IMG/VR virus record: IMGVR_UViG_3300037234_000331
Span: 1 to 25,895 of that record
Strand: one strand, 5' to 3'
From: a virus
Length of the DNA stretch: 25,895 nucleotides
Shown here: piece by piece, positions 2,392 through 25,570 of the stretch
Layout of the letters: every line of letters starts with the position of its first letter
How positions within the stretch are numbered: position 1 is the first letter of the stretch
Made by a program: the position numbers and the translations under genes
The notes under the pieces: generated by a model
Database searches by the model: none
What the model was told of the DNA's origin: nothing
What the model saw: only the letters and a program-made list of their open reading frames with translations

Positions 2392-3047
2392 AAACCCACA
2401 CAAAACCCAACACACTAAAAAAAACAAGGGCAAGTAAACGCGGTTCGGCTATGCAGGCGATCGGGACACTGGAAAAGAATCAGGATACTTTCATCCTAAC
2501 CTATGGGCAGTTTTCGCTGATCGACGCTCTAATGGCCATTCTTAGACAAACTGGACCGGCACACGTATCAATTAGTACGTGGACGGCAGCACATGCGCAT
2601 TTAGACAGGGCGATGGAGTTAATGGAGGCTTCGACCTTTTTATCCTTTCGCATGATTGTTGATAGATCATTCAAGACAAGACAACCAAAGTATTATCAAC
2701 ACATGATACATTTATTTGGCGCGGACTCGATAAGAGCCATAAGAACGCACGCAAAGTTTATGATCATCCGAAACGATCACTGGGATATCGTTGTCAGAAC
2801 GTCGATGAATCTTAATGAAAACCCCAGGCTGGAAAACATCGAAATATCAGAGAACAAGGCTTTTGCAGAATTTTTCCAACTGATTGTTGATGATGTTTTT
2901 TCTGAAGTTGGCAGCGAGGTGATGTTGTCCGATATGCCGAAGCTGGAAAATACAAAGGATACAGAACAGTTTAATCTTGTCTCAGGAAACCACATTAATG
3001 CTAATGAGTTAAACGAGGTAAAATATACCCATGTGCTCAACGATTGA
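2388..3047 (+). CDS. Phage PLD-like domain protein (219 aa)
   Basis: Residues about 60-170 show the layout of a phospholipase-D-superfamily half: VSISTWTAAHAHLDRAM, then RMIVDRSF, and a HAKFMIIRNDHWDIVVRTSMNLNENPRLE segment. The latter resembles the HxK...D...(G/T)S.N..N..E signature, but with six rather than four residues between the K and the D. It therefore looks like a divergent or inactive HKD domain. The N-terminal 25 residues are Lys/Arg/Thr-rich and could bind nucleic acid. It is coupled by ATGA overlap to the HTH gene upstream and overlaps the P27-like gene by 17 bp downstream. An HTH, PLD-like and small-terminase trio is familiar to me from other phages, usually next to the large terminase; here it is not. 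Exact role unknown. Confidence 0.65.
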   Translation: MKTHTKPNTLKKTRASKRGSAMQAIGTLEKNQDTFILTYGQFSLIDALMAILRQTGPAHVSISTWTAAHAHLDRAMELMEASTFLSFRMIVDRSFKTRQPKYYQHMIHLFGADSIRAIRTHAKFMIIRNDHWDIVVRTSMNLNENPRLENIEISENKAFAEFFQLIVDDVFSEVGSEVMLSDMPKLENTKDTEQFNLVSGNHINANELNEVKYTHVLND

Positions 3048-3267
3048 TCTAGTTAAAACCCAAGTGCGCCACAGTACGCCTATAAGCATTATTACGCTTA
3101 TTGCAGACCAAATTAAACGCGCAGACGACGCGAAAAAACGAATAGAACTGGAGGGCCTTGTCGTGCGAGACATGAAGGGTTCGGTTATTCCGCATCCAGC
3201 AATAAAAATCGAGCTAGACGCTATGAAACTAATCTCAGACCTGCTTATGAAACACAAGCCTCGGTAA
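3031..3267 (+). CDS. P27-type small-terminase-like protein (78 aa)
   Basis: The second half (KRIELEGLVVRDMKGSVIPHPAIKIELDAMKLISDLL) matches the P27-family small terminase pattern: an eG.vv..kG....HPa..ie..a.k....l stretch, with the conserved His-Pro. The usual P27 protein is longer (about 100-160 aa), so this is a short version lacking most of the N-terminal helices. It overlaps the PLD-like gene by 17 bp. If it is a DNA-recognition subunit, the phage encodes a second one besides the TerS next to TerL at the right edge. Alternatively it is a relic of a replaced packaging module. Family assignment is by eye only. Confidence 0.55.
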   Translation: MCSTIDLVKTQVRHSTPISIITLIADQIKRADDAKKRIELEGLVVRDMKGSVIPHPAIKIELDAMKLISDLLMKHKPR

Positions 3268-3316
3268 ACGAACCAGGTGCTGATGTACGAGGCCCGCAAT
3301 AACGCTGTTTTAAGCT

Positions 3317-3341
3317 GCCCCGCAGTGGGGCATAACTGCGG
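3317..3341 (+). promoter_or_regulatory. Two mutually exclusive hairpins overlapping a ribosome binding site
   Basis: Hairpin A is GCCCC (3317-3321)/GGGGC (3327-3331). Hairpin B is CCGCAGT (3320-3326)/ACTGCGG (3335-3341). They share bases and cannot form together. Hairpin B would bury the GCGGAG ribosome binding site (3338-3343) of the short ORF at 3354. The upstream arm is missing in the second repeat copy at 3728, so the intact membrane-protein gene is not under this structure. Confidence 0.4.
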
Positions 3342-3394
3342 AGTAACAAAAAAATGACTATCGGTTTAATTATTGGCCTCTGGTTTGCGTGCGG
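3330..3394 (+). repeat. 65-bp direct repeat, copy A
   Basis: Bases 3330-3394 are identical to 3728-3792 (offset 398 bp). The repeat contains a GCATAAC heptamer, a ribosome binding site (GCGGAG), an ATG and the first 13 codons of the membrane-protein gene that is intact in copy B. Sequence diverges immediately on both sides. Confidence 0.92.
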
Positions 3395-3407
3395 GAGAGA
3401 GACATGA
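3354..3407 (+). pseudogene. Truncated 5' stub of the membrane-protein gene (17 codons)
   Basis: Copy A of the repeat carries the ATG and the first 13 codons (MTIGLIIGLWFAC) of the gene intact at 3752. After the repeat the frame runs four more codons (GRET) and stops in ATGA at 3404-3407, overlapping the start of the 105-aa gene. The stub may therefore act as a translated leader coupled to that gene. It is a by-product of the duplication rather than an independent protein. Confidence 0.6.
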
Positions 3408-3721
3408 AACTAAGTGAGTTTGTTGGAACTGACCATCCGGATAATAAGATTAACGTGTCCGCCGGAACCATGCGCGACATGGTGGAGCGAAAGGACGAAA
3501 TAGATACGAGCGCATTTCTGTATTGCTATAGACAGACGACGAAACACATCTTGCCGCCCATTGCAGCAGAGCGTGCTCTGGCGAGAGACTGGGGTGGGCA
3601 CCCAATGGGCGGCATCGGATCGCCAGACTGTAAAGACAAATGGGCGCGCGCCTACCAGGAAGCATCTCTGTTAAGTGATGAGATCTTCGACATTTTGCAG
3701 GAGCGGGCATTGTATCGCTAA
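3404..3721 (+). CDS. Hypothetical phage protein in a duplicated-flank insertion (105 aa)
   Basis: ATG at 3404 is preferred over the GTG at 3389: it follows GGGAGAGAGAC, and the extra residues would come from repeat sequence. The protein MKLSEFVGTDHPDNKIN... has a central Trp/Gly segment (ARDWGGHPMGGIGSPDCKDKWARAYQEASLLSDEIFDIL). That segment resembles small phage proteins with a conserved wGgHpmG stretch, a resemblance I recall but could not check. The gene lies between the two 65-bp direct repeats, and recombination between them would remove it exactly. Its stop is followed by CGCCATGCATAAC. Function unknown; the gene looks like a mobile accessory insertion into the leader of the membrane-protein gene. 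Confidence 0.72.
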   Translation: MKLSEFVGTDHPDNKINVSAGTMRDMVERKDEIDTSAFLYCYRQTTKHILPPIAAERALARDWGGHPMGGIGSPDCKDKWARAYQEASLLSDEIFDILQERALYR

Positions 3722-3727
3722 CGCCAT

Positions 3728-3792
3728 GCATAACTGCGGAGTAACAAAAAAATGACTATCGGTTTAATTATTGGCCTCTGGTTTGCGTGCGG
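3728..3792 (+). repeat. 65-bp direct repeat, copy B
   Basis: Identical to 3330-3394. Here the repeat continues into the complete membrane-protein gene, so this copy, or the pre-duplication junction, is probably the original gene start. The left flank differs from copy A and lacks the CCGCAGT hairpin arm. Confidence 0.92.
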
Positions 3793-3979
3793 AGTGGTTG
3801 CCTGGGGGCTAATGTACGGCTACTTCACAAATAAATATAAATACCCCGATCAAGATGAGTGGCGGACTAGCCACATCGTATTCGCCTTTGCTGGTCCTAT
3901 GGCATTACTGGCCGGGCTTGTTTGCCTGTGGCAGTTTAACGGCCTCAAAAACATATTTAGGTACGGGTTTAAGCTGTAG
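3752..3979 (+). CDS. Small membrane protein with two TM helices (75 aa)
   Basis: Two hydrophobic segments are clear: residues about 2-24 (TIGLIIGLWFACGVVAWGLMYGY) and 43-64 (IVFAFAGPMALLAGLVCLWQF). They are joined by a polar loop (TNKYKYPDQDEWRTS), and the tail is basic. It is therefore an inner-membrane protein. The ribosome binding site GCGGAG lies 11 bases before ATG, inside the 65-bp repeat. Small two-helix proteins of this type occur in phage accessory regions and gene cassettes. The XRE gene follows 26 bp later, so they may be co-transcribed. Function unknown; a holin role is possible but neither the location nor a partner supports it. Confidence 0.75.
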   Translation: MTIGLIIGLWFACGVVAWGLMYGYFTNKYKYPDQDEWRTSHIVFAFAGPMALLAGLVCLWQFNGLKNIFRYGFKL

Positions 3980-4005
3980 CAATAGAAGTGGCGGAGAGTT
4001 TAATA

Positions 4006-4203
4006 ATGAAATCTTTTGGGGAAAAACTAAAAACCATACGAGAAACATTAGAGATGACGCAGGGAGATGTTGCTGAGTTTTCTGGACTGAAGCCGTCTGC
4101 AATCTCTCATTTTGAGACGGGGAGGAGGAAGCCTGGGTTGAAAAACATTGTCCGTTTATGTCGGGCGTTAAATTGTGAGCCTAATGCGCTCATTGATGTA
4201 TAA
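4006..4203 (+). CDS. XRE-family HTH protein (65 aa)
   Basis: ATG at 4006 follows GGCGGAGAGTTTAATA and is a better start than the GTG at 3988. The whole 65-aa protein is one HTH_3 domain: FGEKLKTIRETLEMTQGDVAEFSGLKPSAISHFETGRRKPGLKNIVRLCRAL, with the recognition helix SAISHFETG and the typical RKPGL...LCRAL end. It is a stand-alone Cro-like DNA-binding protein, a second XRE protein distinct from the one at 2161. Its TAA stop lies inside the GTATAAC heptamer that opens an attC-like element. It could be a phage repressor or Cro relative, an antitoxin-like regulator without its toxin, or a cassette-borne regulator. Confidence 0.85.
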   Translation: MKSFGEKLKTIRETLEMTQGDVAEFSGLKPSAISHFETGRRKPGLKNIVRLCRALNCEPNALIDV

Positions 4204-4258
4204 CGCCGCAAATCAGCGGTGTGGAGCGAGGCACGAGCGGAACGTCAGCTGGTTATGT
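4198..4258 (+). repeat. attC-like intercistronic element 1 (weak)
   Basis: GTATAAC (4198-4204, overlapping the XRE stop) and GTTATGT (4252-4258) form terminal inverted heptamers 61 bp apart, the length of a typical integron attC. CCGC at 4206-4209 can pair with GCGG at 4214-4217 or 4237-4240, but the central dyad is imperfect. This is compatible with R''/R' boxes of an attC site but not proof. Confidence 0.4.
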
Positions 4259-4286
4259 GATTTTAATTTTAACGGAGAATTACAAA

Positions 4287-4538
4287 ATGAAAACTGTATA
4301 TGATAATGGCGGCGAATGTCTTGGCAATGAATTTATTGATTTGTCCGACCTTCAAGAATCTACAAAAGACGCAATATTACAGATGGTGTATCTGGATGAA
4401 ACTTTGGATGTGTTAAATAATCAGGTTAACAATAATGAACGCAAAACGCTAAAAATAGTTGATTCCTGCTTCCATGCTTACGCCTCATCTTCCCGGGCCG
4501 AAGCTGCGGACATGGCAAAAGGCTTACTGGACACATAA
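4287..4538 (+). CDS. Cassette-like hypothetical protein (83 aa)
   Basis: ATG at 4287 follows AACGGAGAATTACAAA and is preferred to the earlier ATG at 4221, whose 22 extra residues are translated attC-like sequence. The acidic 83-aa product (MKTVYDNGGECLGNEFIDLSDLQ...) appears mostly helical, with two Cys residues and an Asn-rich turn (LNNQVNNNERKTL). No family is recognised. It starts 34 bp after one attC-like element, and its stop codon is inside the next one. That single-gene-plus-short-recombination-site layout is the pattern of an integron gene cassette. Function unknown. Confidence 0.7.
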   Translation: MKTVYDNGGECLGNEFIDLSDLQESTKDAILQMVYLDETLDVLNNQVNNNERKTLKIVDSCFHAYASSSRAEAADMAKGLLDT

Positions 4539-4579
4539 CATTTGAGTTAACGAGTTTATCTCGTTGAACGACTTGTTAT
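4535..4579 (+). repeat. attC-like hairpin element 2 (best example)
   Basis: Outer arms are ATAACA (4535-4540) and TGTTAT (4574-4579). Inner arms are GTTAACGAG (4546-4554) and CTCGTT-G-AAC (4560-4569), which pair fully apart from one bulged G at 4566. The loop is TTTAT. Unpaired spacers TTTGA (4541-4545) and GACT (4570-4573) separate the two stems. Two paired boxes, an unpaired spacer and an extrahelical base are the defining layout of a folded integron attC site. At 45 bp it is shorter than most. It contains the stop of the gene at 4287 and sits just before the gene at 4600. Confidence 0.55.
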
Positions 4580-4599
4580 ATTTTTACCTGAGGATTGAT

Positions 4600-4791
4600 A
4601 TGAAAGTAATGCTAGAAGAAGGCGTTTGGTTGCTTGGTTGGCCTGCTGTTTGCGACGGAGACCCGCCTCGAACACTGAATGAAACAGATGCTCATAAGTT
4701 TGACACAATGGACCAGGCAAAACAGGCACTGGAAGAAGCCAGGGCTTATAGGCCGTTTGAAAATGCAGTGATAACTGAAGACTTTATTTGA
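4600..4791 (+). CDS. Cassette-like hypothetical protein (63 aa)
   Basis: ATG at 4600 follows TGAGGATTGAT, a clear ribosome binding site. The TTG at 4564 would translate the attC-like stem, so it was rejected. The acidic 63-aa product (MKVMLEEGVWLLGWPAVCDGDPPRTLNETDAHKFDTMDQAKQALEEARAYRPFENAVIT...) has a beta-hairpin-like N-terminus and a helix, the size and shape of many small alpha/beta cassette proteins. No family is recognised. It is flanked on both sides by attC-like elements. Function unknown. Confidence 0.7.
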   Translation: MKVMLEEGVWLLGWPAVCDGDPPRTLNETDAHKFDTMDQAKQALEEARAYRPFENAVITEDFI

Positions 4792-4793
4792 AA

Positions 4794-4851
4794 GTCTTAA
4801 TCCCCTGAATAGCGGGTCTCGTTTCTGACCGGCTGGAGCTAATTGTTATGC
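4794..4851 (+). repeat. attC-like intercistronic element 3 (weak)
   Basis: GTTATGC (4845-4851) resembles an attC R' core and overlaps the next start codon. GCGGGTC (4812-4818) pairs with GACCGGC (4827-4833) with one mismatch. The expected left heptamer is poor: only GTCTTAAT near 4794. The GTTATGC is the exact inverse complement of the GCATAAC that closes the next gene (5079-5085). Confidence 0.35.
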
Positions 4852-5084
4852 GTGATTTATCAAAATTATTTTGGGCTGATCTTGAGACTGATGAAGAGCG
4901 GGAAGCTTTTGTGCGCTCAGGAAGGGCTGTTGAAACAAGGATAATTACACCGGCGGTTGCTGCTGATGTGGCTAACGCTTACCGGGCAAAAAGGGCATTG
5001 TATGACGCTGTTGATTTGGCCGGCAGTGGGTGTATGCCGTTAGGTGTACTGGTTGACGACTGGAAAGACATACTTAATGCATAA
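4848..5084 (+). CDS. Cassette-like hypothetical protein (78 aa)
   Basis: The ATG at 4848 lies inside the GTTATGC heptamer, with GGAG nine bases upstream. The 78-aa product (MRDLSKLFWADLETDEEREAFVRSGRAVETRIITPAVAADVANAYRAKRALYDAVDLAG...VDDWKDILNA) appears helical, with a hydrophobic centre and a Trp near the C-terminus. It has no recognised motif. Its TAA stop is part of GCATAAC (5079-5085), the pattern of a cassette gene ending in an R''-type box, but no matching GTTAT box follows before the terminator at 5148. It looks like the last member of the cassette-like run. Function unknown. Confidence 0.7.
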   Translation: MRDLSKLFWADLETDEEREAFVRSGRAVETRIITPAVAADVANAYRAKRALYDAVDLAGSGCMPLGVLVDDWKDILNA

Positions 5085-5118
5085 CGGTTTGGCACTATAC
5101 TATGTATAGGATCTGACA

Positions 5119-5176
5119 TGGAGCCCGACTCCACAGTAGGACCCACCGGGCCATGGAAACGTGGCCCTTTCTTTTT
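5119..5176 (+). terminator. Rho-independent terminator with upstream hairpin
   Basis: GGGCCA (5148-5153) pairs with TGGCCC (5162-5167) around an eight-base loop and is followed at once by TTTCTTTTT (5168-5176), a standard intrinsic terminator on the plus strand. A smaller hairpin, TGGAG/CTCCA (5119-5133), lies just upstream. The minus strand lacks a T tract after the stem, so the element acts in one direction only. It would end transcription of the cassette-like run. Confidence 0.8.
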
Positions 5177-5223
5177 CACCCGATCACCCGTCCGCCGTAT
5201 TAATGACTGAGGATTTAGATGCC

Positions 5224-5517
5224 ATGACCGACACAGCAAAAAACATCGAACTGGAAGCTGACGCCGAGGCAGGCGGTCGTCTGGAAGCGGCCTTGTTAGC
5301 TGCCACCGGGTTTGAACGATGCGCCTTTGGGCGTGATGAACAAGAGGATGCGTGCGAACGCTGCGACACGCAGAATGTACAGCTCTATTTTGGCAACCAA
5401 GATTACTGGACACCGGCAGATGGGGATTACTGGTGTCTGAGCTGCCTGCGTGAAGTCAAAGAGGGTAATGACCGTTACGCAGACGAAATGGGGTACAAAG
5501 AGGCAGTGTGCAGCTAA
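5224..5517 (+). CDS. Zinc-ribbon-like phage protein (97 aa)
   Basis: The frame is open from a GTG at 5161, but that lies in the terminator. ATG at 5224, with GAGGA ten bases upstream, is the best start; ATG at 5203 has no ribosome binding site. Residues about 35-90 contain ACERCDTQNVQLYF and YWCLSCLREVKEG, two CxxC pairs in a zinc-ribbon arrangement, with aromatic and acidic residues between them. It is probably a small metal-binding nucleic-acid or protein adaptor; the specific role is unknown. It follows the terminator with no obvious promoter, and is the last rightward gene before the convergent late operon, whose last stop is 15 bp away. Confidence 0.65.
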   Translation: MTDTAKNIELEADAEAGGRLEAALLAATGFERCAFGRDEQEDACERCDTQNVQLYFGNQDYWTPADGDYWCLSCLREVKEGNDRYADEMGYKEAVCS

Positions 5518-5532
5518 CGCCCTGCATGCCAG

Positions 5533-5735: not shown

Positions 5736-8700
5736 TCAGCTAACTCCCCACTTGGCCTTAAGATAGTCGGTTATAGTGGTCCTGTCGCCTGATGATATGA
5801 TGTTGTCATAGATGATTACTTCAGCTATGTCGCCATCGAATGTAAATGTTGTTGGCGAACCACCTGTTGCAAAAAGTTTTAGATTATATGATGCCTCACT
5901 AGAAACAGGAATATGCGCGTTAGACTCAACAGTATTAACAGATACTCCGTCTTTGTAAAACTCGCAATCATCCCCAGACCGGTCATACTCATACTCCACT
6001 TGCACTATTTGTGCCGTTGAGGACGGGTATGTATCGTTGCCAGCTTTTGCCGATATGGTCCCCTGCCCAGCCACGCCACGCGTTACTTGGTAAACCATAT
6101 TGTCATTGCGCGAAGAACCACTCCTATCGTCAACGAAAAGACATGTGCCTACATTTGAGGGGGTTCCGATATTGTTGCCCAATAAATACTGATGCGAATC
6201 TGGGTTAGCAGATGCGGTTTTGAATACAATAATAATTGTTTTCTGCGTCGTATCATGCAAAAACACCCAGTTGGCTTTAGTATAATTCCCTAGACTGGCA
6301 TCGACACCATTCCCTCTAACAATGGCCAGCGAATTTAGAATACCCGTTTTATACGCCGGTCTATACGCCAATGTTGACTGAGTATAATCATAGCCGTTAC
6401 CCGATTTATCAGCCCAGCACCCAACTGGATCATCATCACTTGTAACTGGGGTGGTTTTTGCAGAATCTTGATACAAGCTATTGATATCTGCCCCGTCCAG
6501 CCACAGTACCAACCCATCAACCTGTAGTGGAACGCCCACTGCATAATTAAAGGCCCACTCTGCATCCTGCCATGACACATACCCGTCTCGCTCGGAACGC
6601 ACAATAAGAGTGTGCTCAGCATTAAAAAGTGAAGTTAAGTCAACTGTTTGACTAGTGATTGATATGCCGCTATGATCAATCTGCACCACGTCACCGTCAT
6701 CAATTACTTGCACTCGGTAAGTTGTCCCTGCCTCTGGGCCAATGTCTCCCTCTGTGTGGTCGTATAATACGCCATCGGTTTGCTGCACCCTATCCCTGTG
6801 CGCCCAAGTCACGTCAATAGATGCCGCCGAAACGTCTCCAGTTGGATAATAGGCTGCGTCTATCTGCAATTTGCCAGGTGGATAAGGCCGAATCGCCCGC
6901 CCATCAAGTATAATCGTGTCCTCATAGGCTTGTGTCTCAAGCAGTGTCCCCCCCCCTGTAGTCGGGCGTATTTTGACGTCCACCTCATCGCTATCAATAT
7001 ATTCAGTCGAGTCTGCTCCATGATATGCATCCCACCCGAATATTTCAGCATCAACCGCATGAAGGGCTGGCACTGTATCAAGTGCGCCCCTGCCCACCTC
7101 AATCTCTTCTGCACTGGTATCTATTGTATCAATGCGGACTATTTCGTCACCCAACTGCATGTGCTCACCAACAGCAATAAGATCAATATCAACACCGTTT
7201 TTGTACTCCAGCGTTGTTTCTGTCTCATCAACTGCGGTGGCCAACTCCGCATAAAAACAAAAATCCAACAAACCTACGTCCTCATATCCGGCACCTGAAT
7301 CTATGGATAGAGTAGCTTTAATAGCTGCCCCTGGGCGTGCAGCTGCCGCTACAACGTAGCCCAAATCTGCCTCGTCAGCCAAAAAATCAGTTGCATCCCG
7401 ACTGCCTATCCGTTGGATTAACTCATAATATGGCGCTTCGAGCACCAGCCTATTCTCTGGCGCAACTGGCGGCTGATTAGGGTCAACCCATGCCGGATCT
7501 GAGTCGCCCTGCTCCGTGGGAGCCGTATTTGTGTACCCAAAAACATCCTCTGCTAAATCCAGTTTCACCCGGTTGTTTCTGCCATCACCGAAAGAAATTT
7601 TGGTGACTCTCATTACCAAGTTTACTATTTCGAGATCCGGCCAGTCTATGATAACCGCATCCCCTAAGTTCAAATCAGCGGCCAGCCTGGTTGCTTCTAG
7701 GGTGCAGATCAGCAATGGTGCCGATAAAACGCGCAAATCTCGCAGCGCAACCTTGGCGGCGGTCGTTTTATTCGTGAACCCAGGGTACTGGGTTGTCGTG
7801 TTGATTTCATTGCCTTGCATGATGACAAGAGCTTGATCTGTAACTGTTACCGATGCTGTATTACCTGTGCAGGTGTCCCAGTACTGCACAGTAACGCTGT
7901 TAACCATTTCACCAAGAGACGGGCGTTTTGCAGACGCCACTTTTATAATGTCATCCTCCCCCAATGTTGTTAAAGCCCCTACGGAATAATCATCCCGTAT
8001 CAGCTTGAGTACGAATTTCCCCGTTGCTTTTGATGTGTATAGCGCTGCATTTACGTGCTTCAGAATTTCCTTAACAAAATCCTCGATTTTAGTCTGCTTG
8101 GTCCATAACAAAGACATCCCCATAGACTCGCTATAAAGCGTATCAGCCGCCGCCTCGAAGGAAGCACTATCAATATCTGCTGATGGGTAGCCCATGCCCC
8201 ATTCGGTATCTGTTAAGCACTCTCTGATAATATGCGCAGGGTTCATATCCAGACCCGCCGGGTAACCCGTAAATAAAGCAAACTTTAGCGAGTTTGTTAA
8301 CGCGGCTGGGTCAGTCCCCACAAGCACAGGCACTCCGTCTGAATCGGTGTTATCTAAATACGCTGTGTATGCGGTGCTTACAAGGTCAATATTAAACCCA
8401 TAAGCGTAAAGGTTAGCTGTGCTAAATAAAGTGCTTTGTGCTGATTCACACATTATTATCTTTTCGGATTCTGTTAGTCCATCACCCACCCAAGGCACCC
8501 CGTCTGTGACAAAAAGGAAATACCGCGCTGTCGCAGAGGCTAACCCAGCGAAGAATGAATTAACTTCAGTAACAGCTTCTTCAAAATCCGTTTGACCCGT
8601 CGTAACATACGCACTGACAACCGCTTTCAGTGCCGTGATGGCCGCAGAATCAACATCCCTAACAATGTCAGTCGAATGCGTTGTAGACCAACCAACCAAA

Positions 8701-9317
8701 CAAATATCGACGCTCTCTACCCACCCAAGCATATCGTCTATGTAGTCAAGAAACCCGTTGATAGCCACTTTTGCATTATCTAACCGCGTCGTGCTGCCGG
8801 ACACAACAGTATCCATTGAAGCCGACAAGTCTAAGGCAATATAAACAGCTAACGCCGGTACGACATTTGGGCATATATCGGGGTTGGCTATCGCTGCCTT
8901 TGCATCATACCATTGCTCTGCGCTGCCTGTTGTTGTATGTATGCGCTGTAGTCGAAATTCCCACGGCTTCATGTATGGATTCAAGCCAATATTTACCTGC
9001 TTCAGAATAGCGCTGACAACGCCGCGAAAAGCAGGCACGTCAACATCTAGCACAGATTCCAGGTAGGTATTGGGCGTTTGTGCTGGCCCACCAAAATCAA
9101 AGTCAACAGCGCCTTCTATGCCGCCCTCCCTGCTTTCCCCACCGAACAACTCAGGCGCGTTTATTGTTATCTCACCCCCATCATGATCACCCATCCAAGC
9201 TATTTTTTTATCAACTTTGATGCCGGTGATTGCGTCTACAGGGCCATGACATAAAACCATATGCATCCCCACATAGTACCAATACCCGACAGTCACGTCA
9301 TCGCTTTTACCGCCCAC
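5736..9317 (-). CDS. Tail-tip/host-specificity protein (J-like) with vWA insertion and C-terminal lectin-like domain (1193 aa)
   Basis: Start chosen at GTG 9317: it follows GGTGGAGGTGGCGC, and the N-terminus becomes MGGKSDDVTVGYWYYVGMHM, typical of this tail-hub family. Residues 1-150 and about 355-600 are hub-like and resemble phage tail J/tip proteins (VLCHGPVDAITGIKVD; DMNPAHIIRECLTDTEWGMGYP). Between them, about 156-338, lies a von Willebrand A domain with MIDAS residues visible: DLSAS (163-167), TGQTD (240-244) and FVTDGVP (about 269-275). A beta-rich and FN3-like middle follows. The last 265 residues start GLVLWLDGADINSLYQD and look like a LamG/concanavalin-type jelly roll, a probable receptor-binding head. 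The gene ends the tail module. Confidence 0.88.
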   Translation of the reverse strand: MGGKSDDVTVGYWYYVGMHMVLCHGPVDAITGIKVDKKIAWMGDHDGGEITINAPELFGGESREGGIEGAVDFDFGGPAQTPNTYLESVLDVDVPAFRGVVSAILKQVNIGLNPYMKPWEFRLQRIHTTTGSAEQWYDAKAAIANPDICPNVVPALAVYIALDLSASMDTVVSGSTTRLDNAKVAINGFLDYIDDMLGWVESVDICLVGWSTTHSTDIVRDVDSAAITALKAVVSAYVTTGQTDFEEAVTEVNSFFAGLASATARYFLFVTDGVPWVGDGLTESEKIIMCESAQSTLFSTANLYAYGFNIDLVSTAYTAYLDNTDSDGVPVLVGTDPAALTNSLKFALFTGYPAGLDMNPAHIIRECLTDTEWGMGYPSADIDSASFEAAADTLYSESMGMSLLWTKQTKIEDFVKEILKHVNAALYTSKATGKFVLKLIRDDYSVGALTTLGEDDIIKVASAKRPSLGEMVNSVTVQYWDTCTGNTASVTVTDQALVIMQGNEINTTTQYPGFTNKTTAAKVALRDLRVLSAPLLICTLEATRLAADLNLGDAVIIDWPDLEIVNLVMRVTKISFGDGRNNRVKLDLAEDVFGYTNTAPTEQGDSDPAWVDPNQPPVAPENRLVLEAPYYELIQRIGSRDATDFLADEADLGYVVAAAARPGAAIKATLSIDSGAGYEDVGLLDFCFYAELATAVDETETTLEYKNGVDIDLIAVGEHMQLGDEIVRIDTIDTSAEEIEVGRGALDTVPALHAVDAEIFGWDAYHGADSTEYIDSDEVDVKIRPTTGGGTLLETQAYEDTIILDGRAIRPYPPGKLQIDAAYYPTGDVSAASIDVTWAHRDRVQQTDGVLYDHTEGDIGPEAGTTYRVQVIDDGDVVQIDHSGISITSQTVDLTSLFNAEHTLIVRSERDGYVSWQDAEWAFNYAVGVPLQVDGLVLWLDGADINSLYQDSAKTTPVTSDDDPVGCWADKSGNGYDYTQSTLAYRPAYKTGILNSLAIVRGNGVDASLGNYTKANWVFLHDTTQKTIIIVFKTASANPDSHQYLLGNNIGTPSNVGTCLFVDDRSGSSRNDNMVYQVTRGVAGQGTISAKAGNDTYPSSTAQIVQVEYEYDRSGDDCEFYKDGVSVNTVESNAHIPVSSEASYNLKLFATGGSPTTFTFDGDIAEVIIYDNIISSGDRTTITDYLKAKWGVS

Positions 9318-9501
9318 GCGCCACCTCCACCACCCGCAAAGCCATTGCGTCACCTGTCGCTAATACTTGCTTAACGGGCAATCCAGGCGCACGCAGCGCA
9401 CGCAGGTCAAGACCATGCCTCTCGCAAAATAAACGCGCTCCTCTTGCGCACATTTTAGCCCGCCTAACATGGCGCATTGTGATCAACAATGTATCGCTCA
9501 C
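9307..9501 (-). CDS. Small tail-tip accessory protein (64 aa)
   Basis: GTG at 9501 overlaps the preceding stop as GTGA, and the stop overlaps the tip-protein start by 11 bp, so all three are coupled. The 64-aa Arg-rich product (MSDTLLITMRHVRRAKMCARGARLFCERHGLDLRALRAPGLPVKQVLATGDAMALRVVEVA) matches a small family that I know from the same place in related siphophages, with the pattern G.r.....hgld...f...Gl....l..tgDa.a..v...A. The two Cys residues are not obviously paired with a metal site. Its role is probably in tail-tip assembly; no biochemical function is known to me. Confidence 0.75.
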   Translation of the reverse strand: MSDTLLITMRHVRRAKMCARGARLFCERHGLDLRALRAPGLPVKQVLATGDAMALRVVEVARGR

Positions 9502-22845: not shown

Positions 22846-24245
22846 GCGGATGGCGCTTCCATCTCAATTTTAGCTATTTCTGCTTCATAAGCATCCTGAG
22901 TTAAACCCTGTTCTTGCATCCAGGTATGGATAGACTCTTCAGATATTGGCGCGCCCAATCCTTTTGCCTGCATAATCTGGACTAGTGTTTGCCCATTAAG
23001 CTCATCGTCGGTAAAGTCAAGATTAGGCTGTATCGACACATCATCTGGATTAGCCCCGTGCCATTCGGCCAGTGTTTTCAACACCTTTTCGAGCCCTGCT
23101 GCCCCGGCTTGAGCTACTGCGGGCAATGTGGCCGATTGTGCAGCAACCCGGATTCGTAGCGCATCGCCCGATTCTTTGGCCCGACTGGTTGAGTCTGACA
23201 GTTGTCCGGATTTCTGCATCGCTCGCTGATAGTCGTTCTCCAGCGCCATGCGCTGCTCGGGCAGTCCATTTGATGACACCCCGGCGTATTTAACATCTCC
23301 GCCCTGTGGAACATCTATCCTGGCCCCGGCACCGGTTCTAACCACCTCATCATCTCCCGGCATGGCCCCGATACGAACCAGCGTGTCCTGCCCCTGCATA
23401 AATAGATTTTGCCGGTAATCTGCCTCCCCTCGATAAATTGCCATGCAGTGATTAGCTAAGCCGTCCAACGGCGGATAATCAGGGGTTGGCGACAAATCTT
23501 TAGAGTTAACAAACGAAAATGGTATTGACTCTAATTTTTCCCCCATCATGTTGGGCTCATCCCATTCAAGCCCGGCCAGGTTGTTTATTTCATCGTCCAC
23601 TGTGACGGTTTTGTATTGCCCATCAGCATCAAGATTGCCCTCATCGTCTACCAACGCGAGAACACGGTACCGGTTTTTTAACTGCCACTCCATTGATGCA
23701 TCCATCACATATCCCGACTCATCCAGGACCACCAATCTGACATCAACATCATCTTGGTCAATGGCCGTATCATCCCAATTCAGTATCGATATTTCGTTAT
23801 AGGTAACAATCACCGGTCTTGTTGTTGATCCATCAATACGAATATCACCGAGTAGTCCGACCCGCCCTGTAATCAACTGCCTGGCATTGATGCGCCTAAG
23901 CAACATATCCAGGGACTCTCCCAGAAGAGTTGCGTTTTCGCGCATTGGCTCCAGTACTGCAGGCAGATCGATGATTGCCTCCTCCCTGTGCATTATCCCG
24001 ATAGCCGCTTCAACGGCTTCTTTGTAGGTATCAGGATAAACGGCACGCAACTTATACGCATCATAGGCTTTCTGCCCGTCTGTCAGCACGCCTATGCCCT
24101 GGCCATCCGCCACCTGGCCAGATGTTGCTGGCAAGTAATCTGTTCCTTTGCTTTTTACAACCGCTTCACCAGCATAACTATCATTTCCTAGATGCCAGTA
24201 CCATAATTTGGCCGTATATTCTGGATGCGCTGCTGCATTTGCCAT
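22842..24245 (-). CDS. Portal protein (DUF4055 type, 467 aa)
   Basis: Position between TerL and the gp7-like gene, length 467, and sequence all fit the DUF4055 portal group: YDAYKLRAVYPDTYKEAVEAAIGIMHREEAIIDLPAVLEPMRENATLLGESLDMLLRRINARQLITGRVGLLGDI, VTYNEISILNWDD, and LDGLANHCMAIYRGEADYRQNLFMQGQDTLV. A later ARIDVPQGGDVKYAGVSSNGLPEQRMALENDYQRAMQKSG segment gives the long alpha wing, and an acidic helical C-terminus follows. The protein forms the dodecameric vertex through which DNA enters and leaves. TAATG overlap with TerL and ATGA overlap with the minor head gene. Confidence 0.9.
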   Translation of the reverse strand: MANAAAHPEYTAKLWYWHLGNDSYAGEAVVKSKGTDYLPATSGQVADGQGIGVLTDGQKAYDAYKLRAVYPDTYKEAVEAAIGIMHREEAIIDLPAVLEPMRENATLLGESLDMLLRRINARQLITGRVGLLGDIRIDGSTTRPVIVTYNEISILNWDDTAIDQDDVDVRLVVLDESGYVMDASMEWQLKNRYRVLALVDDEGNLDADGQYKTVTVDDEINNLAGLEWDEPNMMGEKLESIPFSFVNSKDLSPTPDYPPLDGLANHCMAIYRGEADYRQNLFMQGQDTLVRIGAMPGDDEVVRTGAGARIDVPQGGDVKYAGVSSNGLPEQRMALENDYQRAMQKSGQLSDSTSRAKESGDALRIRVAAQSATLPAVAQAGAAGLEKVLKTLAEWHGANPDDVSIQPNLDFTDDELNGQTLVQIMQAKGLGAPISEESIHTWMQEQGLTQDAYEAEIAKIEMEAPSA

Positions 24246-25570
24246 TAATAATGTCCTGTTGTTGTGCCTGTTTTAAACTGTTGCCCATTTGTTGGGTATT
24301 TGTAGTAAATATAATACCCCACTGCTGTCGTTACATGCTGATAATCCGAGTCTTCTTCAAGAAATGACGAGCCTTTTTTGAGCTGCACAGTGGCTAGCCC
24401 CCTGTGGGAATGGGGGGCTAATATCGGGTTAACGAAGAGCGACACTTCACCTGCTGCATTCTTAATCTTGGCCCTGACTGCGTTCTGTCTGTCCTTTATT
24501 GCAGGGGCAGCGGGCGTCACTCTCCGCTGATACGTCCATCCGTTATCCCCTAACACCCGTTCCATTTCCGTGTAATCCGAAGCATGCCCGTGCTTTTCAC
24601 CAGCACGCCCAGCGGGATCTCCATAAATTATCACTTTTCTGTTCTTGTGGTTTTTGTATTTCTCACAGAATTCAAGCGCTGATTGCCTGGCAACGGCTGA
24701 AGTTAAAATTATCTCGTCAAGGATATATATTCCCGTTCCGCGCTCAACAGCAATGCATGACGACATTGGCGTATAATTGAAGTCGTGACACCAGTTTAAC
24801 TGCTCGTGTGGCTGTATTGTCTCACCGGTAATATTTCGCTTGTTACTGTAATCTTCGTAGATCCGCCCGTACGCGCCCTCAAAACTGGCCTCGAACTCTT
24901 GACGAAATTGTTTGGCCGACATTTGGCGCTTAGCTGACTCGATGACATCTGACGGCAGTATGTCGGCGCTTTTCCAGTGAAACAGCGCCCAATCTGGATC
25001 TTCCCTGGTTTCTGCGTATTGCGCCATGTCATAATATTGACCCAACCCTTCCGGCACGCCGATCAACCAACACCAGGCTCGATAGTCTGGACGTGAAGGT
25101 AGCACTGTATTAAGCGCCGGAAGTATATTTGTCTCCCATGCACCATCTTTGATGTTTGCAATCTCGTCGATCACGCCGCCGGTCCATGGAATGCCTTCGA
25201 ATCGCTCAGGACGATCCAGCCCTATGAGATGTGTTTCTGTCCCGTTTGGCATATATATAATCAGATCAGACTCGCTTGGCCGCCGAGGGTGAATAGACGA
25301 ATACGATAACAGCTTCACATCATCCCAAAATATCTTCTTCACCTGGTCCCGTGTTGGTGCGGCCAAGAAATACATCTCTTCTGGATTAGCAATTGCCTGG
25401 CCAATTACAAACCGCTTTGCATGCTCTGTTTTTCCCGACCTCCTTCCGGCTGGTACAACGGGGAACCGAATGCCATTCTTAACGGCTGCCACAAGCGCGT
25501 CCTGCACTGGATGCGGTTTCAGCTTATACCATCTCGCCTCAGTCCGATCTATGAGTCTATTAATATTCAC
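24245..25570 (-). CDS. terL: Terminase large subunit, TerL (441 aa)
   Basis: ATPase half: Walker A GRRSGKT at about 42-48, AAPTRDQVKKIFWDDV at about 70-85, and Walker B GGVIDE at about 131-136. Nuclease half (RNase H-like): the acidic residue in CHDFNYTP (about 263), GDPAGRAGEKHG.ASDY (about 318 and 332) and a C-terminal EDSDYQHVTTAVGYY acidic cluster. It drives ATP-dependent DNA translocation into the procapsid and cuts the concatemer. The ATGA overlap with TerS couples the two. Length 441 is normal for short TerL proteins. The packaging mode (cos or pac) cannot be decided from the window. Confidence 0.95.
   Translation of the reverse strand: MNINRLIDRTEARWYKLKPHPVQDALVAAVKNGIRFPVVPAGRRSGKTEHAKRFVIGQAIANPEEMYFLAAPTRDQVKKIFWDDVKLLSYSSIHPRRPSESDLIIYMPNGTETHLIGLDRPERFEGIPWTGGVIDEIANIKDGAWETNILPALNTVLPSRPDYRAWCWLIGVPEGLGQYYDMAQYAETREDPDWALFHWKSADILPSDVIESAKRQMSAKQFRQEFEASFEGAYGRIYEDYSNKRNITGETIQPHEQLNWCHDFNYTPMSSCIAVERGTGIYILDEIILTSAVARQSALEFCEKYKNHKNRKVIIYGDPAGRAGEKHGHASDYTEMERVLGDNGWTYQRRVTPAAPAIKDRQNAVRAKIKNAAGEVSLFVNPILAPHSHRGLATVQLKKGSSFLEEDSDYQHVTTAVGYYIYYKYPTNGQQFKTGTTTGHY

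Follow-up and report, generated by a model that had tools for sequence, protein, structure and literature searches.

An attC-type site set against the genes of a siphophage early region, and the same layout in other viral contigs

Results

Gene content of the early region

The window analysed here, the whole stretch of 25,895 bp, is an IMG/VR virus record in which early genes occupy the plus strand up to 5.5 kb and a structural module follows on the minus strand. The large terminase gene (24245–25570) matches a terminase PHROG (E = 1.1e-29) and Pfam Terminase_6N, and the tail proteins share 34–39% identity with those of Pseudomonas, Xanthomonas and Variovorax phages. A large tail protein (5736–9353, minus strand) carries a Phage-tail_3 domain and, in its N-terminal half, a weak von Willebrand A domain (E = 1.9e-4), and an ORF of only 78 aa (3031–3267), far from the large subunit gene, aligns with the middle of terminase small subunit families (phrog_34561, E = 4.8e-11). 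We found no close DNA relative of the record in the phage collection. A scan with the tail protein for relatives returned nothing, and the TerL relatives are without this tail protein, a distant relative of the endonuclease being present in only one of them.

Four small plus-strand ORFs, numbered ORF0 to ORF3, lie between 4006 and 5084. ORF0 (4006–4203) encodes a 65-aa HTH_3 regulator (Pfam, E = 5.5e-14), the only one of the four with a named family in Pfam or PHROG. ORF1 (4287–4538, 83 aa, SD CGGAG) has no Pfam or PHROG match at 0.001, and its C-terminal 27 residues are 59% identical to a match in a large viral contig. ORF2 (4600–4791, 63 aa, SD GAGG) is weakly similar to a hypothetical protein of Cellulophaga phage phi18:3 (41% over 44 aa, E = 0.007); apart from this, neither ORF2 nor ORF3 (4848–5084, 78 aa) has a relative in the viral and bacterial collections, nor ORF2 in plasmids. 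None of the four was found as a cassette elsewhere. Each has an SD-like site, in agreement with an earlier note on this DNA, which gave every gene its own ribosome binding site.

Upstream lies a perfect 65-bp direct repeat (3330–3394 and 3728–3792) that begins with GCATAAC. The gene between its copies (3404–3721, ending in TAACGCC) looks like the insertion of a 398-bp unit, and the start of a small membrane gene (3752–3979) falls inside the repeat. Past ORF3, a GC-rich hairpin at 5149–5176 is followed by a T-rich tract and is probably an intrinsic terminator that closes the cassette-bearing operon.

A site with attC architecture

At the end of ORF1, positions 4533–4581 read on the minus strand as an R'' box (ATATAAC), AAGTC, an L'' arm (GTT-C-AACGAG), ATAAA, the L' arm (CTCGTTAAC), TCAAAT and an R' box (GTTATGT). 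The R boxes pair over 5–6 bp and hold the AAC...GTT core pair with its G|TT cleavage core, and the L arms pair with zero mismatches around unpaired central spacers and an extrahelical base of the kind that gives an attC its polarity. The earlier note had described 4535–4579 as paired boxes with unpaired spacers and one bulged G; this description was borne out, with a full extent of 4533–4581, R boxes ATAACA/TGTTAT, an inner L stem and the extrahelical G on the plus strand. That note had also proposed folding the bottom strand, which does form a stem with an extrahelical base; against shuffled sequences the fold has a z of −2.9 on the plus strand and −2.4 on the minus strand.

Two scores place the site among known attCs. 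A structural scanner that seeks R''/R' pairs with L''/L' stems, and that recovers the attCs of reference integrons at 12–18.5, gives it 14 on the plus strand and 16.5 on the minus strand, the latter equal to an aadA1 attC, and finds no other match of at least 14 in the window. Among 150 dinucleotide-shuffled versions of the window one reached 16.5, and no position in 620 kb of other viral loci did. A covariance model (R1), a kind of check that the earlier note had likewise proposed, was built from an alignment of 23 reference attCs drawn from class 1 integrons, a Vibrio anguillarum phage, a Shewanella phage and phage TJE1. The P12002L attC at 30005, which R1 does not recognise at E ≤ 10, was left aside. 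With R1 the minus strand of the site scores 42.4 bits (E = 2.7e-8) and its plus strand 10.6 bits; most reference attCs score 22–57 bits, a range that includes this site although it lies outside the training set. Judged by its sequence and predicted fold, this phage element (4533–4581) is a true attC-type site.

The site runs against the genes

The extrahelical C in the L'' arm on the minus strand corresponds to a G on the plus strand. In aadA-type attCs the extrahelical C lies in the L'' of the top strand, so that the bottom strand carries the G, and the site read on the minus strand has the same spacing as aadA1. Since the strand with the bulged G, here the plus strand, is the bottom strand of an attC, the attC itself reads on the minus strand. 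Its predicted recombinogenic strand is therefore the coding strand of the neighbouring genes, and the attC is, on this assignment, antiparallel to ORF0–ORF3. A standard gene cassette holds an ORF parallel to its attC; here the attC lies on the other strand, and between this site and the element at 4198 the longest ORF has 93 codons in the antiparallel direction (ORF1 from an upstream start) compared to 36 in the parallel one. The standard layout implied by the earlier note, a gene followed by a co-oriented attC, was wrong: R1 gives 42.4 bits on the minus strand against 10.6 on the plus strand.

The element at 4198–4258 (minus strand) is probably a decayed attC of the same polarity that retains R boxes ACATAAC/GTTATAC and the GCGGCGTTAT end, the inner L stem being gone. 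It is as weak as the earlier note had stated (15.4 bits, E = 0.12), yet it is the second-best R1 match of the window, adjoins the strong site and lies on the same strand. With R' cores at 4198–4204 and 4533–4539, the two G|TT crossover points delimit a putative cassette of 335 bp (4204–4538, minus strand) composed of the decayed attC and antiparallel ORF1. The stops of ORF1 (TAA, 4536–4538) and ORF0 (TAA, 4201–4203) end exactly where the G|TT crossovers are predicted, the latter in the R' of the decayed attC. Such overlap is the expected look of a cassette with a reversed ORF, which in attC polarity would open with TTA, a stop codon in reverse.

The stretch between ORF2 and ORF3 (4794–4851), which the earlier note had counted as a weaker element, contains a GTTATGC box and a 7-bp stem but scores 4.4 bits at best and was rejected as an attC. 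An Rfam scan gave no match at the gathering score; a sub-threshold CRISPR repeat match at 4794 (E = 1.6) was judged to be chance. The ORF3 stop lies inside GCATAAC (5079–5085), an R'-like box on the minus strand; GTTATGC and GCATAAC do bracket one gene, as had been noted, but the window contains 8 copies of this heptamer where 4.3 are expected. Two TAACGCC motifs, at the ends of the genes at 3404–3721 (3719–3725, plus strand; GGCGTTA on the minus strand) and 5224–5517 (5515–5521, plus strand), are possible, weak remnants of inverted R' ends. Across the whole window GCATAAC and TAACGCC occur at near-chance counts, so that box counts alone are not evidence. The association of gene stops with TAAC boxes that the earlier note had pointed out does hold: 5 of the 8 genes ending within 3267–5517 have a stop touching such a box, and of the 31 genes that end outside this range only 1 does (post hoc hypergeometric p of about 5e-4).

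A complete integron includes an IntI gene, and no TIGR02249 match is present in these 25.9 kb, which are a fragment of a genome. Clusters of attCs lacking integron integrase (CALINs) require at least two attCs above a model cut-off within a few kb and no IntI; here the sites score 42.4 and only 15.4 bits, the second below the 20-bit cut-off used by Qi et al. 2023 (PMC9892861). The array has no more than two sites, one good and one weak, and IntI was not seen.

The same layout in other viral contigs

We scanned IMG/VR with two mutually exclusive attC-consensus patterns that carry zero ORF information. They returned 105 and 76 stretches (more than 170 loci, L072–L246), compared to roughly 2 each expected by our own estimate, with 224 and 248 attCs confirmed by R1. 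The earlier note had called gene cassettes in phage genomes rare; with more than 100 attC-bearing IMG/VR stretches, and phage attC clusters reported in 2023 (PMC9892861), they are less so than claimed.

Between adjacent same-strand attCs we took the best ORF per strand by length, SD site and start codon, a heuristic that called 76 ORFs antiparallel, 29 parallel and 17 ambiguous in the first set, and 83, 30 and 29 in the second. The same procedure gave 2 antiparallel, 27 parallel and 2 ambiguous in reference arrays (class 1, Vibrio, Shewanella and TJE1). The pooled ratio of antiparallel to parallel ORFs, 159:59 in IMG/VR, where some contigs may derive from the edges of prophages or from bacterial arrays binned wrongly, thus differs from the 2:27 of the references, a small and class-1-heavy set (Fisher p = 4e-12); counted by locus it is 33:11 and 37:11 in the two sets. 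Composition-shuffled cassettes lean parallel (96 versus 70 antiparallel), so the ORF-calling procedure does not create the antiparallel excess. An SD site with an ATG start precedes 118 of 174 antiparallel ORFs and 18 of 92 parallel ones (references included), and in 82 of 159 antiparallel ORFs the stop lies at most 4 nt from the core or cassette boundary, as in the window. In 48 loci, against 23 with the opposite arrangement, the long flanking ORFs share the direction of the cassette ORFs: the genes are aligned with the operon, and the attCs oppose it. Clear antiparallel arrays are found in L137, L138 and L145, and other phage contigs hold longer arrays with the same layout.

We tested 48 longer records: a terminase model matches 14 of them and a portal model 5, the two sets overlapping in part, and 5 contain a true IntI. 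Among records that have a terminase or portal but lack IntI, those with one or more scored cassettes split into 6 antiparallel, 0 parallel and 1 tie, and the terminase record that does carry IntI (L150) has 10 parallel and 0 antiparallel ORFs. Published phages show both arrangements. In the isolated Pseudoalteromonas phage PH101 (L250:25919–27987) four attCs lie on the plus strand and the genes on the minus strand, by a polarity call made with R1 and not from the published figure; phage MW202573 has attCs on the minus strand and genes on the plus strand, and in TJE1 the attCs are parallel to the genes. Together these counts suggest that a reversed gene/attC layout is the rule for phage-borne integron-type cassettes, those that serve to evade bacterial defences among them.

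We searched 113 proteins, from antiparallel cassettes and the window ORFs, against Pfam and PHROGs. Pfam identified several DNA methyltransferases, Mom, NinX, phage gp49/66 and a dATP/dGTP diphosphohydrolase domain, and PHROGs concurred. One antiparallel cassette of a viral contig (L244:1854–2132) encodes an Acb2/Tad1-like hairpin protein, a putative counter-defence sponge (Pfam, E = 1.6e-13). Most of the functions that could be named are phage early and counter-defence ones. Some antiparallel cassettes have homologues on other contigs, such as a methyltransferase cassette shared by L108, L111 and L246.

Discussion

We consider it fairly likely that this siphophage carries, among its early genes, a small and partly decayed group of integron-type cassettes in a phage layout, in which the genes follow the operon with their own ribosome binding sites and the attC is reversed. 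The earlier description of the region as integron-cassette-like and captured by a phage gains support, as one site scores like bona fide attCs and a probable decayed one adjoins it. The window would then be a minor, degraded member of an apparently phage-specific and seemingly common variant of cassette array.

The locus resembles the phage CALINs of PMC9892861 in combining a phage genome, attC-type sites amid small ORFs and no IntI, and differs in having one strong and one weak site. That study reports that 5 of 6 tested phage attCs recombine with attI1, recombining attCs of the isolated phage PH101 among them, and calls the PH101 layout typical since all genes point one way. In the sections consulted we found no discussion of attC polarity relative to genes, though PH101 and MW202573 show the antiparallel arrangement when scored with R1, and our literature search found no report of reversed gene/attC polarity in phage cassettes. 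The TJE1 attCs, recombined experimentally in the same study, are very similar in sequence to the one described here (ATAACAA..TTCAAC..GTTAA..CAAATGTTA) but parallel to their genes, whereas the window attC is antiparallel. Class 1 and sedentary chromosomal arrays share with the window the attC architecture, the G|TT core in R' and one small gene per site; their genes, however, run parallel to the attC (27:2) and beside intI, attI and Pc, and not antiparallel in a phage early operon.

It is rather unlikely, in our estimate, that the locus is a fossil, that is, an array fragment gained by illegitimate or homologous recombination in which one attC looks intact and nothing moves now. Decayed or absent neighbouring sites, an IntI not seen in the incomplete 25.9-kb record and the lack of a relative found with the same cassettes would all fit such a history, against which stand the pairing, spacers, extrahelical base and R cores that the strong site retains with zero mismatches, and the longer arrays of the same layout on other phage contigs. 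A conventional array, with every plus-strand gene followed by its own co-oriented attC, is largely refuted and very improbable: the order of gene, stop, R box, hairpin, R box and gene resembles ordinary cassettes, and the R boxes are symmetric, but the bulge lies in the wrong arm for a plus-strand attC and the score that way is 10.6 bits instead of 42.4. Just as little weight falls on a hairpin with no integron link that arose between phage genes by chance or serves there as a weak transcription terminator or operator, as the E of 2.7e-8 under the full attC model, part of which scores specific sequence beyond the stem, the absence of R1 matches (E ≤ 10) from 486 kb of related phage loci, the rarity of the scanner score in shuffles (1/150) and an AT-rich stem outweigh the commonness of inverted repeats between phage genes, the five-T run after the hairpin on the plus strand and the near-chance counts of other GTTAT/ATAAC boxes. 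The site may still act as a weak terminator alongside its role as an attC.

If the region is a cassette set of phage layout, its plus strand, single-stranded during phage replication or transcription, would fold into an attC hairpin with the extrahelical G. A host-supplied integron integrase, a source of movement that we infer from general integron biology and from PMC9892861, would cut the G|TT core and excise the cassette from, or insert it into, a phage or host array. The TTA at the cassette start in attC polarity would be the reversed TAA stop of the gene, which, ending exactly at the crossover, would therefore survive shuffling intact and be expressed in the phage by read-through transcription. 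We hypothesize that phage transcription also exposes the recombinogenic strand as the non-template strand. Since the choice of the bottom strand sets the direction of insertion (PMC8946536), an ORF antiparallel to its attC would be turned towards Pc in a bacterial array and stay mostly silent there; its expression would be limited to places where the attC lies opposite to a phage operon, to the presumed benefit of the phage. Such cassettes would suit phages, probably as a shared pool of early and counter-defence genes. More tentatively, and with somewhat more doubt than belief, we propose that phages share a mobile pool rich in these genes, each inverted relative to its attC and with its stop codon formed by core bases, which is moved by host integrons and expressed only from phage operons.

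Integrons are bacterial stores of useful genes, antiphage defences included. If the proposal is true, a phage pool of counter-defence cassettes, wired orthogonally and moved by the host integrase, would tie two mobile systems together in an arms race, and would explain part of the mosaicism of phage early regions. The polarity rule is simple and testable, and short anti-defence genes could be mined between inverted attCs in the viral contigs of metagenomes.
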